Shown piece by piece: positions 19,340-26,922 of a stretch of DNA of 40,406 nucleotides. The notes under the pieces were generated by a model that did not search any database, was not told the DNA's origin, and worked only from the letters and a program-made list of their open reading frames with translations. Source of the stretch: Nodosilinea sp. LEGE 07298 (GTDB lineage: Bacteria > Cyanobacteriota > Cyanobacteriia > Phormidesmidales > Phormidesmidaceae); contig NZ_JADEXE010000023.1 in the NCBI RefSeq assembly GCF_015207265.1, forward strand, positions 1 through 40,406, read 5' to 3'. How positions within the stretch are numbered: the first letter of the stretch is position 1; each line of letters begins with the position of its first letter. The position numbers and the translations under genes were made by a program.

Positions 19340-20401
19340 ATGACCACTACTCTACAGCGGCGCGAAAGCGCCTCCCTGTGGGAGCAGTTTTGCCAGTGGG
19401 TCACCAGCACCGAAAACCGCCTGTATGTAGGCTGGTTCGGCGTGTTGATGATTCCTACCCTGCTCGCTGCTACCGCTTGCTTCGTCGTAGCCTTCATCGC
19501 TGCACCCCCCGTCGACATCGACGGCATCCGTGAGCCCGTCGCTGGCTCTCTGATGTACGGCAACAACATCATCTCCGGTGCGGTTGTGCCTTCCTCGAAC
19601 GCCATTGGCTTGCACTTCTACCCCATCTGGGAAGCCGCTTCCCTCGATGAGTGGCTGTACAACGGTGGCCCTTACCAGTTGGTAATTTTCCACTTCCTCA
19701 TTGGCGTCTTCTGCTACATGGGTCGTGAGTGGGAACTGAGCTACCGCTTGGGCATGCGCCCCTGGATCTGCGTTGCTTACAGCGCACCCGTGGCCGCTGC
19801 CTCTGCTGTATTCCTCATCTATCCTCTGGGCCAAGGTTCGTTCTCCGACGGCATGCCTTTGGGTATCTCGGGTACCTTCAACTTCATGCTGGTCTTCCAG
19901 GCTGAGCACAACATTCTGATGCACCCCTTCCACATGCTGGGTGTGGCCGGTGTGTTCGGTGGTTCCTTGTTCTCCGCTATGCACGGTTCGCTGGTGACCT
20001 CTTCACTAGTGCGTGAAACCACCGAGACCGAGTCTCAGAACTACGGCTACAAGTTTGGCCAAGAAGAAGAGACCTACAACATCGTGGCAGCCCACGGCTA
20101 CTTCGGTCGGTTGATCTTCCAATATGCCAGCTTCAACAACAGCCGCTCTCTGCACTTCTTCTTGGGTGCGTGGCCTGTGATTGGCATCTGGTTCACCGCT
20201 CTCGGCATCAGCACGATGGCGTTCAACCTGAACGGGTTCAACTTCAACCAGTCGATCCTTGACTCACAGGGTCGTGTGATTGGCACCTGGGCTGACGTGA
20301 TCAACCGTGCCAACCTGGGTATGGAAGTGATGCACGAGCGCAATGCTCACAACTTCCCCCTCGACCTAGCTACGGCTGAGGCTCCTGAAATCATCGGCTA
20401 G
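19340..20401 (+). CDS. psbA: Photosystem II D1 protein, E130 form
   Basis: D1 is the photosystem II reaction-centre subunit that binds P680, pheophytin, QB and most of the Mn4CaO5 cluster. All key residues are present: Y161, D170, H190, H198, H215, S264, H272, H332, E333, H337, D342 and A344. Residue 130 is Glu (GREWELSYR), the form linked with high-light D1 copies; low-light copies carry Gln. The C-terminal extension after A344 is nine residues (TAEAPEIIG), giving 353 residues instead of the frequent 360. CtpA would remove it. Five membrane helices. Single gene with its own promoter and a strong terminator. Other psbA copies probably exist elsewhere. Confidence 0.99.
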
Positions 20402-22646: not shown

Positions 22647-22838
22647 ATGATTAAACCCATTGCGTTTCAGATTGGTGCGGATGTTGCTGATGCGATTAAT
22701 TAGGCTTCTTCTACGCAAAAGATTCGCCAAAAAGTAGCTTCGAATAGTTTGACTGCCGCTGTTCCTATTAAGCCGACAGATCGCTTTTCAGGGATTGCAA
22801 AGAGCATTGATTTTGGATTTGATCATAATAAAACATGA
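22647..22838 (+). pseudogene. Interrupted small ORF coupled to the DUF4062 gene
   Basis: A frame of 64 codons from ATG 22647 to TGA 22838 is interrupted once, by TAG at 22701-22703. Its final TGA overlaps the ATG of the next gene (ATGA at 22835-22838), the signature of translational coupling. The reading (IKPIAFQIGADVADAIN, stop, then ASSTQKIRQKVASNSLTAA and on) matches nothing I know. It may be a decayed gene, a short regulatory frame, or chance. Confidence 0.3.
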
Positions 22839-25276
22839 TTAGCCGACATTCTACTCGGAAAATTCTTACTGTATTTTTGGCATCTCCTGGCGATCTTTCT
22901 GAGGAAAGGCGAGTTGCACGAGAAGTTGTCAAAAAAGTCAATCGTATAGTGAGTTCATCTATTGGCTGGCAAATAGATTTAAGGGAAGGAGAAAATGCTT
23001 TGCCAGGCGCTGGAAGACCTCAAGAGCTTATCAATAAAGACATTGATTCATGTGATCTTTTTTTAGGTGTTTTATGGAGAAGATGGGGTTCTTCAACTGG
23101 AGAGTATTCTTCAGGATTCGAAGAGGAATTTGAAAGAGCAAAGCAAAGGCACCAAAAAAATCAACATCCAACCATGTGGTTGTGCTTCAAAGAGGTAGAA
23201 ATTGAACAAAAAAAAGATCCTGGAGAACAGCTTAAAAAAGTGTTAGCGTTTTACGACACTCAAGTCAGCTCAAAAGAATTTCTTTTCAAGGAGTTCAAAA
23301 ATTCAGAAGACTGGCGAGATAAATTGGATGAATGGCTTTTGAGACATGTACTTAATTTTAGCCAAGAGACAAGTCAGGATGAGCAGTTTGAAGCTAATAT
23401 AGAAATTTCTTCCCCCGCAATTAGTAATTTTTCTGCCATCCCTAATCAGACTCCTTCAGAAGTAGATAGCGACGCAGCCACAACACAGTTGATTAATCTT
23501 GTTACCCATGTTTCTCATTCTTTAAGTTCTCCAAAAGAATCCAATCCTTTAAACAGATTTGAAATAGCTCGCTTATGCTTATTCTCCAAAACCTTGCTAT
23601 CAAATCAATATTACGATGACTTTTTGAGTAATCATGAAATACATCTTCTCTATCAGTATCGGGATCAATTAGAACCAACTATCGAAGAGATTCTTCAGTT
23701 TACAAGAACACTGATTGATGATGATAATAATCTAAAGGTTGGATGGTATTGGCTTCAAGGTCTGGACGTAACAACTTTATTGTTTTACTTAGCGCAAGCA
23801 AATAATGACTCTGATCTTCGTATCCAAGCAATAAAAATACTTGAAGAAGCAAAAGTTTGTTTGACAATAGAGCCGAACAATCGTCTTAAAATTCGGAACG
23901 CAGTTTTAGTTGACAAATCAGTACCTGTCAGGATTGCTTGGTTATCTTACCTTAGTTCATTAGGCAGGCTTGAAGATCTGCCAATAGTCAAGAGTGCCTG
24001 TAACGATGAAGATCTACTGATATCTTCTGCAGCTGAATCTGCCAGAATTTGCATTCTTTTAAGACACAATTTAAATGAAGCTGTAGTAGAGTTGGTCGAA
24101 AACAATCTTCCTATCACAAAACTAATAGTTGAAACTATCAAAAAGCAGAGCGATTTTTTAAGTAATGCAATTATGCTCAAGGCTCTGTCAAGTCAAAATC
24201 CGGAAATTCGCTTGCTCATTCTGAAAGAATTAATAGGCAAAAATATTTTAACGGAAAGACAAATTGATGACTTAATTAATGACGATTCAGTGCTAATAAA
24301 GAAAATTTGCTACGAAGCTCTTTTGAAGATGGGCAGAAATATCAGCTTAGATGAAATCAAAAAAGCTTTGGGCGAAGATTTAATTTTTCATGTTGGAAAT
24401 TCACCATTACTAGAAGCTTACTATCGTATGCTTCCAGTCGAGAAACTTCTAGAAGAAATTTACTCACCTTCAATTTATGCAGCTAATGCATATAAAGCAT
24501 TGGCTACAGACCATTTTGAAACCGTTTCAGATCGCATCAGGCTCGACTTGGAAGACGACTTTTCGAATTTAGAAATGCAGATTATAAGCAAGCTTGAGAT
24601 TCAATTTAAAGAAATACTTTCCTTAAACGAAGGTGAACAGGTAAATCAGATTAATGAATTAATTGAATCTTTCAAGAAAACATTTAGAAAATATAGCAAA
24701 TATGAATTCATAAAAGCCGCGTTGTCAGGAATTGTTTTGCATGGAAATGCCCAAGATATTAGATGGGGTAGAAAATATTTAGAAGAATCTGATAAGTTTA
24801 TTGATTTCAAGTTGGAGGCAATAAAAATAGTAGAAATTTATGGTGATGAATCTGATGCTATCATCCTAGTAAACATCGCAAAAAATAGCTATGGAGATCT
24901 TTCAGACTTGGCGGCCAAAGTGGCTGTGAAACTTTCGCCAGGTATTGATGGTGCAGCATTTGATCTTATAAACTCGGAAAGCTCAAACTTGATCAGAATA
25001 GCTATGCAATCCTTTGAGGATAGAAATGGAGATGAAGGTGAAGTTTTTAGAGCTTTAGAGCCATTCCTGAAGAAGGGAAACTTTTATATGCATGATCAAA
25101 TTCTAAAGTACTTTTTCAAAAAGTTTTCCTTTCAAGAACTTGAAGAATTCTTGGCAAAATATCTCCTCGAGGGGCAATATTACTACCATATTGTCTGCTG
25201 GCTTGACAGGATACTGTATGCACCACCTCGTTACAAACAGATGTATTTGCAAAAGCTCACTCATAAACTTAACTAG
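22835..25276 (+). CDS. DUF4062 domain protein with long helical-repeat C-terminus
   Basis: An 813-residue protein. Residues 9-120 form a DUF4062 domain (VFLASPGDLSEERRVAREVV; CDLFLGVLWRRWGSSTG; SGFEEEFERAK with E96-E98 and E100), which has a flavodoxin-like fold resembling TIR and nucleoside-deoxyribosyltransferase domains. After a linker (about 185-215), residues 220-800 are alpha-helical and include HEAT-like units (SVPVRIAWLSYLSSLGR; NPEIRLLILKELIGK; DSVLIKKICYEALLKMGR). DUF4062 often precedes a STAND NTPase, but no P-loop is visible here. It is markedly AT-rich compared with its neighbours, indicating transfer. Its 3' end faces a TM-macro gene ten bases away. A role in phage defence, as enzyme or sensor, is inferred. 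Confidence 0.8.
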   Translation: MISRHSTRKILTVFLASPGDLSEERRVAREVVKKVNRIVSSSIGWQIDLREGENALPGAGRPQELINKDIDSCDLFLGVLWRRWGSSTGEYSSGFEEEFERAKQRHQKNQHPTMWLCFKEVEIEQKKDPGEQLKKVLAFYDTQVSSKEFLFKEFKNSEDWRDKLDEWLLRHVLNFSQETSQDEQFEANIEISSPAISNFSAIPNQTPSEVDSDAATTQLINLVTHVSHSLSSPKESNPLNRFEIARLCLFSKTLLSNQYYDDFLSNHEIHLLYQYRDQLEPTIEEILQFTRTLIDDDNNLKVGWYWLQGLDVTTLLFYLAQANNDSDLRIQAIKILEEAKVCLTIEPNNRLKIRNAVLVDKSVPVRIAWLSYLSSLGRLEDLPIVKSACNDEDLLISSAAESARICILLRHNLNEAVVELVENNLPITKLIVETIKKQSDFLSNAIMLKALSSQNPEIRLLILKELIGKNILTERQIDDLINDDSVLIKKICYEALLKMGRNISLDEIKKALGEDLIFHVGNSPLLEAYYRMLPVEKLLEEIYSPSIYAANAYKALATDHFETVSDRIRLDLEDDFSNLEMQIISKLEIQFKEILSLNEGEQVNQINELIESFKKTFRKYSKYEFIKAALSGIVLHGNAQDIRWGRKYLEESDKFIDFKLEAIKIVEIYGDESDAIILVNIAKNSYGDLSDLAAKVAVKLSPGIDGAAFDLINSESSNLIRIAMQSFEDRNGDEGEVFRALEPFLKKGNFYMHDQILKYFFKKFSFQELEEFLAKYLLEGQYYYHIVCWLDRILYAPPRYKQMYLQKLTHKLN

Positions 25277-25286
25277 CACTTTGATA

Positions 25287-26144
25287 TCAGAAAACAGCAG
25301 TTTTCAAAAAGTCCTCTAAATCATATAAATTCACGTATTCTAGATCTTGAGGAGGGATAACTATTGTTAGTTTGCGAGCAATAAATTCCTCTTTTGAACC
25401 AATTAAAAATGACGTGATTATCAATTTTACCAATACTACTCTTGGGAGATTTGTTCGAGCGAGATTTGAACCAATTACTGGAATAGATATTTGTTCGCCA
25501 TGTCCTTTTAAGCGAACCTGCTCCCAAAGGTTACTTAGAGAATGCCAAATGCAATCAGCATTGGATTGAATCTTTAAATCGTTTCCCATAGAGCCGTAAG
25601 CGACAAGGAAATAGCGCCTATCAAAATTTCCTAATGAAATAGTTGTTCCAATAGGATAACGACGTTGATTACCTTTGAGTTTGCTGAGATCTTCTTTCCC
25701 ACGTTCTTTATGAGTTTTCAATGCCTCTTCAATATCTGTATCTAACTTTATTTTTTCACTTTTATAAACTTTCAACAAAAACTGCCCTTGAACGCTGGGT
25801 TCCGCAATTATCTCTCCTATTTCGGTATCAAAGACATCATTGAATCCTACTACTAAGTGTCCTTTTTCTTGGAAAATATCGCCCAGCTTTATTTCAATTG
25901 TTGAGTTGGGCGAACTTAGTTTTCTGGAAATAGATTTTTTAGGAAAACGCAGGAAAATGGAAATTAGCATTGAAGATACTAATAGGCTAATATAGCCACT
26001 CAAACCCAATGTAATTGCGTCAGGTATAAACAGTCCTAATGGTTCTATCAACAACCATAAAAAGCCAAAAATACTTATAGAAGTGGTTGCGATTCTCCAA
26101 ATCCCAATAGTCAAAAAAATTTTCAGATATATCTGGAAATTCAT
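25287..26144 (-). CDS. Two-TM macro-domain protein, ThsA-like (type II Thoeris effector)
   Basis: A 285-residue protein: two membrane helices (about 10-34 and 43-65), then a divergent macro domain (about 80-285). The segments EIKLGDIFQEKGHLVVGFND, VFDTEIGEIIAEPSVQGQF, YPIGTTISL, RYFLVAYGSM and ISIPVIGSNLARTNL match the Thoeris ThsA macro family (DUF6430 type) as I know it. In type II Thoeris a TIR protein makes a histidine-ADP-ribose signal that this domain binds, and the membrane part then damages the cell membrane. No classical TIR gene is adjacent; the convergent neighbour carries DUF4062 instead. AT-rich, ATG start, no clear ribosome site. Domain call firm, system assignment inferred. Confidence 0.75.
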   Translation of the reverse strand: MNFQIYLKIFLTIGIWRIATTSISIFGFLWLLIEPLGLFIPDAITLGLSGYISLLVSSMLISIFLRFPKKSISRKLSSPNSTIEIKLGDIFQEKGHLVVGFNDVFDTEIGEIIAEPSVQGQFLLKVYKSEKIKLDTDIEEALKTHKERGKEDLSKLKGNQRRYPIGTTISLGNFDRRYFLVAYGSMGNDLKIQSNADCIWHSLSNLWEQVRLKGHGEQISIPVIGSNLARTNLPRVVLVKLIITSFLIGSKEEFIARKLTIVIPPQDLEYVNLYDLEDFLKTAVF

Positions 26145-26559: not shown

Positions 26560-26922
26560 ATGTTTGAATATTTAGAACCAGACCCCAGCGACAACCAAGA
26601 AGCTGGGGCACTGCCGCTACCACCCAAATCTGGGCCAAATGACCGAGGGGCAAGGCCACTGACGCCCGAGAAAGTGCGCCATATGCTTTACGGCAGCCTG
26701 GCCGCGATCGATCGCACCATCAAAATCCTCCATGCTCTCGGCTATGCCGACCCCAATGACTGGAGCGACCCGATCCCCGTACCACCCATCACCGACGGAT
26801 CAACAACCGCCTGGTCATCGAGCGGAGTCGAGAAGCGGTCATCGAGCGGAGCCGAGAAGCGGTCACTGAGCGGAGCCGAAGTGTGGATGGTGATTATGAC
26901 CAAAACCGTGCTGCTAGAGTAG
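26560..26922 (+). CDS. Conserved cyanobacterial hypothetical protein with inserted 8-residue repeats
   Basis: A 120-residue protein. The N-terminal half (LTPEKVRHMLYGSLAAIDRT, then a helix with LHALGYADPNDWSDP) looks like a small conserved cyanobacterial family of unknown function. Residues about 86-108 are three in-frame copies of SSSGVEKR-like octapeptides encoded by a 24-bp tandem repeat, after which the frame recovers a short hydrophobic end (VWMVIMTKTVLL). The repeat is probably a recent insertion of a dispersed motif that kept the frame. AAGGAAA lies before the ATG. A 66-bp inverted repeat follows the stop. Confidence 0.65.
   Translation: MFEYLEPDPSDNQEAGALPLPPKSGPNDRGARPLTPEKVRHMLYGSLAAIDRTIKILHALGYADPNDWSDPIPVPPITDGSTTAWSSSGVEKRSSSGAEKRSLSGAEVWMVIMTKTVLLE
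26815..26882. repeat. 24-bp tandem repeat carrying GAGCGGAGTCGA motif
   Basis: Units at 26815-26838 and 26839-26862 differ at one base (GAGCGGAGTCGAGAAGCGG against GAGCGGAGCCGAGAAGCGG), and a partial third unit runs to about 26882. The core is the same GAGCGGAGTCGAAG motif found intergenically at 17280 and 35174. Confidence 0.8.

Follow-up and report, generated by a model that had tools for sequence, protein, structure and literature searches.

The two genes of the locus

The window, that is, the whole stretch of 40,406 nucleotides analysed here (Nodosilinea sp. LEGE 07298, contig NZ_JADEXE010000023.1), carries the two genes with which this work is concerned, one encoding a DUF4062 protein with C-terminal HEAT-like repeats and the other a two-helix protein with a ThsA-type macro domain. 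The open reading frames lie tail to tail with a gap of 10 bases (Table 1). The G+C content is 34-37% across 23-26 kb, versus 45-64% in the remaining 1-kb steps of the window. A preliminary description of this DNA, made from its letters, had placed the two genes 10 bases apart in an AT-rich island, and coordinates, composition and Pfam all agree with it. From its genes, for example a 353-residue photosystem II D1 at 19340-20401, named from the sequence, we take the window to be cyanobacterial.

In a Pfam scan the larger protein matches DUF4062 over residues 13-102 (38 bits, cut-off 24.7; 1.9e-9) and HEAT_2 over residues 316-402, the latter slightly below the cut-off (26.2 bits against 27.7; 1e-5). 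The scan gave no NTPase family, in keeping with the earlier view of a DUF4062 protein without a visible NTPase. PADLOC matched the N-terminal part of its family PDC-S60 (6.5e-28); the DUF4062 N-domains correspond to the first 170-200 of the 906 positions of that family, so that the likeness covers only part of it. The smaller protein matches Pfam ThsA_Macro (PF20016, 3.9e-56) and PADLOC ThsA (4.6e-70), and its closest counterparts among the solved PDB chains, at E 8.5e-18 to 4.4e-14, are macro domains of ThsA, which confirms the ThsA type first assigned to it by eye. Its most hydrophobic 19-residue stretches are found at about residues 22-41 and 43-66. NCBIfam gave no match for either protein.

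In type II Thoeris, as described in the available text of PMC12847820 and PMC12948488, TIR proteins make histidine-ADP-ribose (His-ADPR), upon which the transmembrane (TM)-macro protein ThsA oligomerises and damages the membrane. The effector half of that system is present in the window, with N-terminal helices, a ThsA macro domain and key residues of EcThsA kept, but the adjacent gene encodes a DUF4062 protein, without ThsB_TIR or TIR_2.

Table 1. Features of the DUF4062-macro locus, in positions of the window (NDT, nucleoside deoxyribosyltransferase; AF2, AlphaFold2).
Feature	Position	Strand	Basis
DUF4062 (TIR-like) protein with C-terminal HEAT-like repeats, 813 residues, proposed sensor and signal-maker	22835..25276	+	Pfam, PADLOC, G400 homologue
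TIR/NDT-like domain, about residues 9-174, alternating beta-alpha order	22859..23356	+	AF2 model, VIA-align
Codon of E98, proposed catalytic glutamate	23126..23128	+	Invariance and KpSwz column
Helical repeat region, about residues 213-813, proposed sensor	23471..25273	+	HEAT_2 match, helical model
Two-helix TM and ThsA-type macro protein, 285 residues, proposed membrane effector	25287..26144	-	PF20016, PADLOC ThsA, PDB
Codon of G184 (EcThsA S175): Gly in 16/16 clade rows, Ser/Thr/Ala in 15/15 TIR-partnered rows	25593..25595	-	
Codon of N227 (EcThsA G218): Asp/Asn/Thr in 16/16 clade rows; TIR-partnered rows Gly in 13/15, the others Glu and Leu	25464..25466	-	

Recurrence of the pairing and the partners of related macro genes

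The adjacency of the two genes recurs. Fifteen distinct macro genes of one clade, from cyanobacteria and one Chloroflexi bin, adjoin a DUF4062 gene. Homologues are thus neighbours, as the pairing put forward in the preliminary description would have it, in 15 of the 16 clade loci; the sixteenth (L029) is cut by the contig start and has no DUF4062 gene on its readable side. The macro family itself is rare: in a sample of 386 genomes from the phylum, eight have PF20016. Five of these eight have a DUF4062 gene beside the macro gene (the window, G019, G103, G133 and G191), and two, G036 and G315 (macros 27-31% identical), have a ThsB_TIR neighbour. In the eight macro genomes DUF4062 (PF13271) is matched five times, each time no more than 3 kb from the macro gene. 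DUF4062 is present in 24 of 377 phylum genomes, which gives 5/8 macro genomes versus 19 of about 369 others (Fisher p ~3e-5, an approximate figure, with draws of 386 and 377 genomes). G385 holds a decayed copy (L015 5328-9617), where pieces of the macro and DUF4062 genes lie around two near-identical short open reading frames, transposase-like by eye.

When GTDB genome contigs were scanned with the alignment of the clade macros, 12 loci came up. Ten had an adjacent DUF4062 gene (two of them being G019 and G133 again), one was the truncated locus L029, and the most distant of the 12, from Actinocorallia (43% identity), had a ThsB_TIR neighbour. Within the order of the window the macro occurs in 4 of 63 genomes, namely those of the window, G400, G420 and G429. 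G400, of another genus, carries the same convergent HEAT-type pair, in which a full-length DUF4062-HEAT homologue (43% identical) adjoins the macro gene (64% identical). The partner in G420 is a ThsB_TIR protein, and in G429 the macro has a 440-residue neighbour with a PADLOC TIR match. This last locus (L091 6246-8498; same genus as the window, macro 25% identical), whose neighbour has no Pfam match and is called TIR solely on the PADLOC value of 1.9e-6, is possibly another unusual Thoeris-like pair. A Nostoc plasmid contributes a further locus, L034, and three of the 15 DUF4062-macro loci are on annotated plasmids; of 83 plasmid records with a macro match seven were examined (H1-H6 and H8), H7 having the same length and position as L013. 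Phage records gave no DUF4062 match and one remote macro.

The DUF4062 neighbours are of three C-terminal types, and local alignments across types span only the N-terminal 100-260 residues. The HEAT type is that of the window and G400, and is also found in G441; the other 13 loci have type A (about 480 residues), type B (about 530 residues, with a C-terminus that matches part of PADLOC PDC-S65) or both. The fused repeats, which had been proposed as sensor and as a feature of the variant, are present in the window as a HEAT-like part and are common to just two of the 15 loci. Type B genes share the strand of the macro gene and lie upstream of it; type A genes either share that strand, downstream or upstream of the macro gene, or converge with it. 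In four loci A and B flank the macro gene, five loci are purely convergent, five have a single same-strand gene upstream of the macro gene, and one (L010) combines a convergent type A gene with a type B remnant. Overall, 9/15 loci have a DUF4062 gene on the strand of the macro gene, most of the gaps measuring 23-250 bases, and at one more locus a remnant of such a gene is left. The convergent layout, also named in the preliminary description as a trait of the variant, had to be rejected as a hallmark, since it is the sole layout at only five of the 15. For comparison, one Thoeris effector may have one or several sensor genes, according to the part of PMC11204291 consulted here.

Some of these loci show signs of decay. 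The type A gene of the two-sensor locus L028 is interrupted. On Nostoc plasmid pTCL26-01_G (L010 8122-11633) the convergent type A gene is intact and the type B gene upstream of the macro is decayed, its remains being a 367-residue piece without DUF4062 match and a 38-residue remnant of the gene start. A different arrangement is seen in G395 (L072 1-2533), where a DUF4062 piece is followed by a long open reading frame that is NACHT-type NTPase-like by eye; the combination of DUF4062 with a NACHT-type NTPase is described for human DUF4062 proteins in the accessible text of PMC13174449.

We mapped the partners of the macro genes on a maximum-likelihood tree of 31 macros, with a midpoint root and support that is good rather than maximal. 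The 15 DUF4062-linked macros and L029 lie on one side of one branch (support 92/87), and the tree needs one change of partner, in agreement with 90% of 200 bootstrap trees. When the partner labels were shuffled the mean was 10.3 changes, and none of 500 shuffles went as low as one. The DUF4062-linked macros and the TIR-partnered Actinocorallia and Priestia rows form a clade with support 98/95. Among the TIR-partnered macros identity is 49% for Priestia, 43% for Actinocorallia and 25-33% for the others, and the Priestia macro is flanked by three TIR-annotated proteins, two of them above the TIR_2 cut-off. Two placements are unsure, those of the Actinocorallia row L032 (long branch, odd composition) and of L091 (longest branch). 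The partners of L038, L060, L082 and L084-L087 were called TIR from tblastn matches to two ThsB proteins. Rows left out as duplicates of rows used or of the L015 fragment were L001-L008, L079-L081, L026, L031, L035 and L092; also left out were L083 (on the contig of L060), L088 (with the match figures of L087) and the fragments L089 and L015.

The preliminary description had held that a classical TIR partner of the macro gene elsewhere would refute its idea. TIR genes do partner more distant macros. Because the DUF4062-linked macros come together as one group on the tree, the TIR partnership of the distant macros looks like the state before the switch, and a single change from a TIR to a DUF4062 partner is the simplest reading of the tree. 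The same relatives bear on a quite different explanation, a toxin-antitoxin pair in which the DUF4062 protein would modify or kill and the macro protein would remove ADP-ribose as its antidote. DarTG is a toxin-antitoxin pair whose macro domain does remove ADP-ribose. The present genes are likewise an adjacent, small pair, and some macro domains hydrolyse ADP-ribosyl bonds (PMC11204291, as far as its text was available), but the macro protein is a member of the membrane ThsA family, which is known as an effector, and its relatives in the tree pair with TIR ThsB. On these two grounds the antidote role was rejected, and we consider the toxin-antitoxin explanation very improbable.

The DUF4062 domain and the pocket of the macro domain

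The sole DUF4062 paper on bacterial immunity that turned up in the open literature, as far as titles and abstracts tell, is a May 2026 preprint on Swarozyc (PMC13174449). According to its main text, DUF4062 enzymes hydrolyse NAD+ to ADP-ribose (ADPR) and nicotinamide, the Swarozyc protein KpSwz, which has an auxiliary domain for binding the phage portal, doing so on meeting that portal; NADase and anti-phage activity of DUF4062 proteins were shown experimentally, and a relative is present in the human vault protein TEP1. That main text contains no 'ThsA', and 'macro' only within 'macrophages'. Some DUF4062 genes are in operons with diverse enzymes (Figure S1 of the preprint, as its main text has it), and the macro pairing may be shown in that figure. 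DUF4062 is then already known as a TIR-like NADase, and its pairing with a ThsA-type macro was not found in print in the open literature on DUF4062, TIR and Thoeris, judged mostly by titles and the starts of abstracts.

A profile of 19 DUF4062 domains searched against PDB sequences gave weak matches, of which KpSwz (10wc) was the best with E 0.02 and TEP1 (11gz) third with E 0.6; it is for these two DUF4062 proteins that the preprint demonstrates NADase activity. The match to KpSwz stops at position 143 of the KpSwz chain. Like Swarozyc, the window protein has an N-terminal DUF4062 domain with Glu in the catalytic column and an accessory C-terminal domain; it differs in being very distant (the E of 0.02 just given), in its C-terminus, which is HEAT-like by Pfam, and in being paired with a macro effector. 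An alignment of these 19 domains, of which 18 come from macro-linked genes, has 20 invariant columns, and that of E98 is one of them. Of the cluster E96-E100 to which the preliminary description had drawn attention, E98 is kept in 19/19 and E96 varies. In the column of E98 the KpSwz chain of solved structure has Ala, two KpSwz relatives have Glu, and the KpSwz construct is named E97A in the preprint text (PMC13174449); for these reasons E98 of the window most likely corresponds to the catalytic E97 of KpSwz.

The fold was compared by means of an AF2 model of the window protein, whose mean predicted local distance difference test (pLDDT) score is 47.8; within the domain the means over 10 residues are 63-84, except for 43 at residues 51-60 and 49 at 121-130. 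From about residue 9 to residue 175 the strands and helices of the model succeed one another as in the TIR/NDT fold, E98 falling close to where helix C (helix 94-109) begins, and the repeat region is modelled, with low confidence, as nearly all-helical. VIA-align, used here as a re-scoring of Foldseek's own match list, placed DNPH1 at the top for the N-domain (Z 13.0, 2.8 Å, 127 residues), with a TIR domain at Z 12.1 (3.4 Å, 139 residues) and AbTir at Z 11.3 (3.5 Å, 128 residues). The CMP N-glycosidase MilB and a deoxyribosyltransferase are also at the top, so that these are mostly enzymes cutting N-glycosidic bonds; unrelated proteins (homoserine dehydrogenase, GTPases) reach Z 10.7-10.9. Foldseek itself gave nothing at E <= 0.001 for the window model, the best being 2.3e-3 (PnpB and WrbA, flavodoxin-like), with a TIR domain ranked 33. 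With a type A model, the Foldseek matches listed were generic alpha-beta and other proteins, and in VIA-align TIR domains and DNPH1 were intermixed with unrelated proteins (Z 9-11). KpSwz was not among the fold matches listed, which excludes nothing. A PDB search with the whole DUF4062 protein returned two engineered repeat proteins and one triosephosphate isomerase (E 0.06-0.8). The nucleotide-enzyme fold foreseen in the preliminary description is consistent with these data, in that the N-domain model, of modest confidence, best fits DNPH1, MilB and TIR enzymes, and that its Glu aligns with KpSwz E97.

As an observation apart, the C-terminal domain of the type A model (L027 9084-10526, residues 253-342) aligns with a protein from the baseplate structure of phage Milano (8fqc_U1; Z 10.1, 2.7 Å, 85 residues). 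The likeness is perhaps that of a common beta fold, or perhaps a clue to what the sensor sees.

Turning to the macro domain, EcThsA binds ADPR, and imidazole-adenine dinucleotide more strongly, according to the text seen of PMC11204291. EcThsA D83, N96, D100 and S217 are retained in the window macro as D89, N102, D106 and S226, and the positions of S175 and G218 are changed, so that the likeness to the ThsA pocket suggested by the early reading of the motifs is partial. The position of EcThsA N114 is Gln in the DUF4062-linked clade and also in the nearest TIR-partnered rows. We compared 16 clade rows (15 DUF4062-linked and L029) with 15 TIR-partnered rows, and found that 4 of 203 macro columns have disjoint residues in the two sets, the same four in three alignments. 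Two of the four are ADP-ribose contacts of EcThsA: S175, which contacts the distal ribose, and G218, which contacts the pyrophosphate by its backbone (both as given in the consulted part of PMC11204291). The change of S175 to Gly and of G218 to Asp, Asn or Thr sets the clade apart from all the TIR-partnered rows compared and, by the same token, from type II Thoeris. The chance of at least two contacts among four columns is 0.018, a figure that counts 12 contacts taken from PMC11204291, the membership of each in the 203 tested columns being unchecked, and that ignores relatedness, so that it is suggestive only. On the tree the pocket differences fall at the same branch as the change of partner. 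They make a different ligand possible, and we put forward tentatively that the DUF4062 protein might make an ADP-ribose-type messenger other than His-ADPR, the macro pocket having changed to fit it.

Proposed mechanism and alternative explanations

We propose, with a probability of roughly 0.7, that the pair is a system resembling type II Thoeris, with DUF4062 taking the place of TIR as the signal-maker. As the TIR sensor is absent, the pair would stand outside type II Thoeris in the strict sense, and yet it likely works like one. Such a replacement, with DUF4062 as signal-maker or sensor, had been raised in the preliminary description, and the recurrent adjacency, the tree, the conserved Glu and the two altered pocket positions argue for it; the use of NAD+, the signal and its binding, the membrane damage and the defence are what we infer. 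The C-terminal helical repeats of the DUF4062 protein would recognise infection and let the TIR-like domains assemble, and these domains would, via E98, break NAD+ to give an ADP-ribose-type signal, which may be free ADPR, His-ADPR or another conjugate. The partner would bind this signal with its macro domain, its two-helix part would oligomerise in the membrane, and the infected cell would stop before the phage multiplies. By descent, the system would be a type II Thoeris that lost its TIR ThsB and took on a DUF4062 enzyme instead.

Should the messenger indeed be one other than His-ADPR, this would be a second-messenger pathway run by DUF4062, into which different sensor ends (HEAT, type A or type B) are plugged, four loci having two sensors per effector. 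The pairing suggests that bacteria can swap the component that raises the alarm in a two-part immune system, and that the sensor and effector halves of Thoeris are seemingly exchangeable across enzyme families. It also makes directly testable whether DUF4062 enzymes send a chemical message as well.

Several observations weigh against the proposal. Known DUF4062 enzymes themselves deplete NAD+, and from the TEP1 domain no further ADPR derivative was obtained (main text of PMC13174449). In the phylum, 21 of the 26 PF13271 matches are in genomes without a macro, and the HEAT-type DUF4062 protein of G441 (27% identical) has no macro match in its genome, the contig ending within the frame of that gene. 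In G400, whose pair is the closest homologue of the one in the window, codon 45 of the DUF4062 gene (L071 2486-5026) is an in-frame TAG, through error or decay. A tree of DUF4062 domains, in which long branches meet and which was not used as support, does not group the macro-linked forms cleanly (2 changes; 8% of bootstraps have one), and the fold comparison is built on the model of low mean pLDDT described above. Finally, a reverse search of the 377 genomes with a DUF4062 profile (A4; 18 macro-linked rows and the G441 relative, at most 8 candidates per genome scored) gave 6 strong matches (E < 1e-60), all beside a macro gene (the window, G019 twice, G103, G133 and G191), but this result is partly circular, since all 6 are rows of the query alignment. 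Its informative part is that the 377 genomes gave no further strong match; four weaker matches were the 38-residue remnant beside the G191 macro and proteins of G143, G211 and G175, in genomes without a macro.

That KpSwz and TEP1 hydrolyse NAD+ (PMC13174449, in its main text), that HEAT-type and other DUF4062 genes occur without a macro in the genome, and that five of the 15 pairs are purely convergent would all suit two separate defences that travel together, the DUF4062 protein killing by NAD+ depletion alone, like Swarozyc, and the macro not being its target. This is unlikely in our view: it leaves aside the adjacency in 15/16 clade loci, the DUF4062 genes that share the strand of the macro at short distance in nine loci, the lack of a nearby ThsB_TIR or TIR_2 gene able to serve the macro, and the macro pocket, which differs on the same branch.

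The macro effector could also be driven by a TIR ThsB encoded elsewhere, with DUF4062 as an accessory. We searched nine genomes for two TIR families, ThsB_TIR and TIR_2; six of the genomes are of the DUF4062 type (G000, which is that of the window, G019, G103, G133, G191 and G400). A further point against our proposal, and in favour of a distant TIR, is that the genome of the window has 4 ThsB_TIR and 26 TIR_2 matches elsewhere; two of the ThsB_TIR matches, of 5.9e-25 and 1.2e-8, are on contigs C173 and C228, outside the window. In none of the six genomes, however, is there a match to either family on the contig of the macro, and on the chromosome of G103 there is none within 0.7 Mb. Moreover, G019, G103 and G191 are without ThsB_TIR, and G019 without TIR_2 too, although all three have a DUF4062-macro locus. 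As G019 lacks both families, no ThsB_TIR or TIR_2 protein serves its macro. By this search of two TIR families a distant TIR seems to us a decidedly improbable driver of these effectors, though one could act in the genome of the window, and the replacement of TIR by DUF4062 remains the preferred explanation.

Over the whole window an Rfam scan gave no match and a tRNA gene search found none; promoter and terminator patterns scored below the shuffled mean. Next to the pair, at 26560-26922 (+), lies a 120-residue gene without Pfam match that belongs to a multicopy family, with 28 matches in the same genome and members in 22 of 26 genomes of the genus. The congener G429, whose macro locus is a different one, also has a copy close to that locus (L091 8842-9210), and for this reason the family may mark insertion sites.

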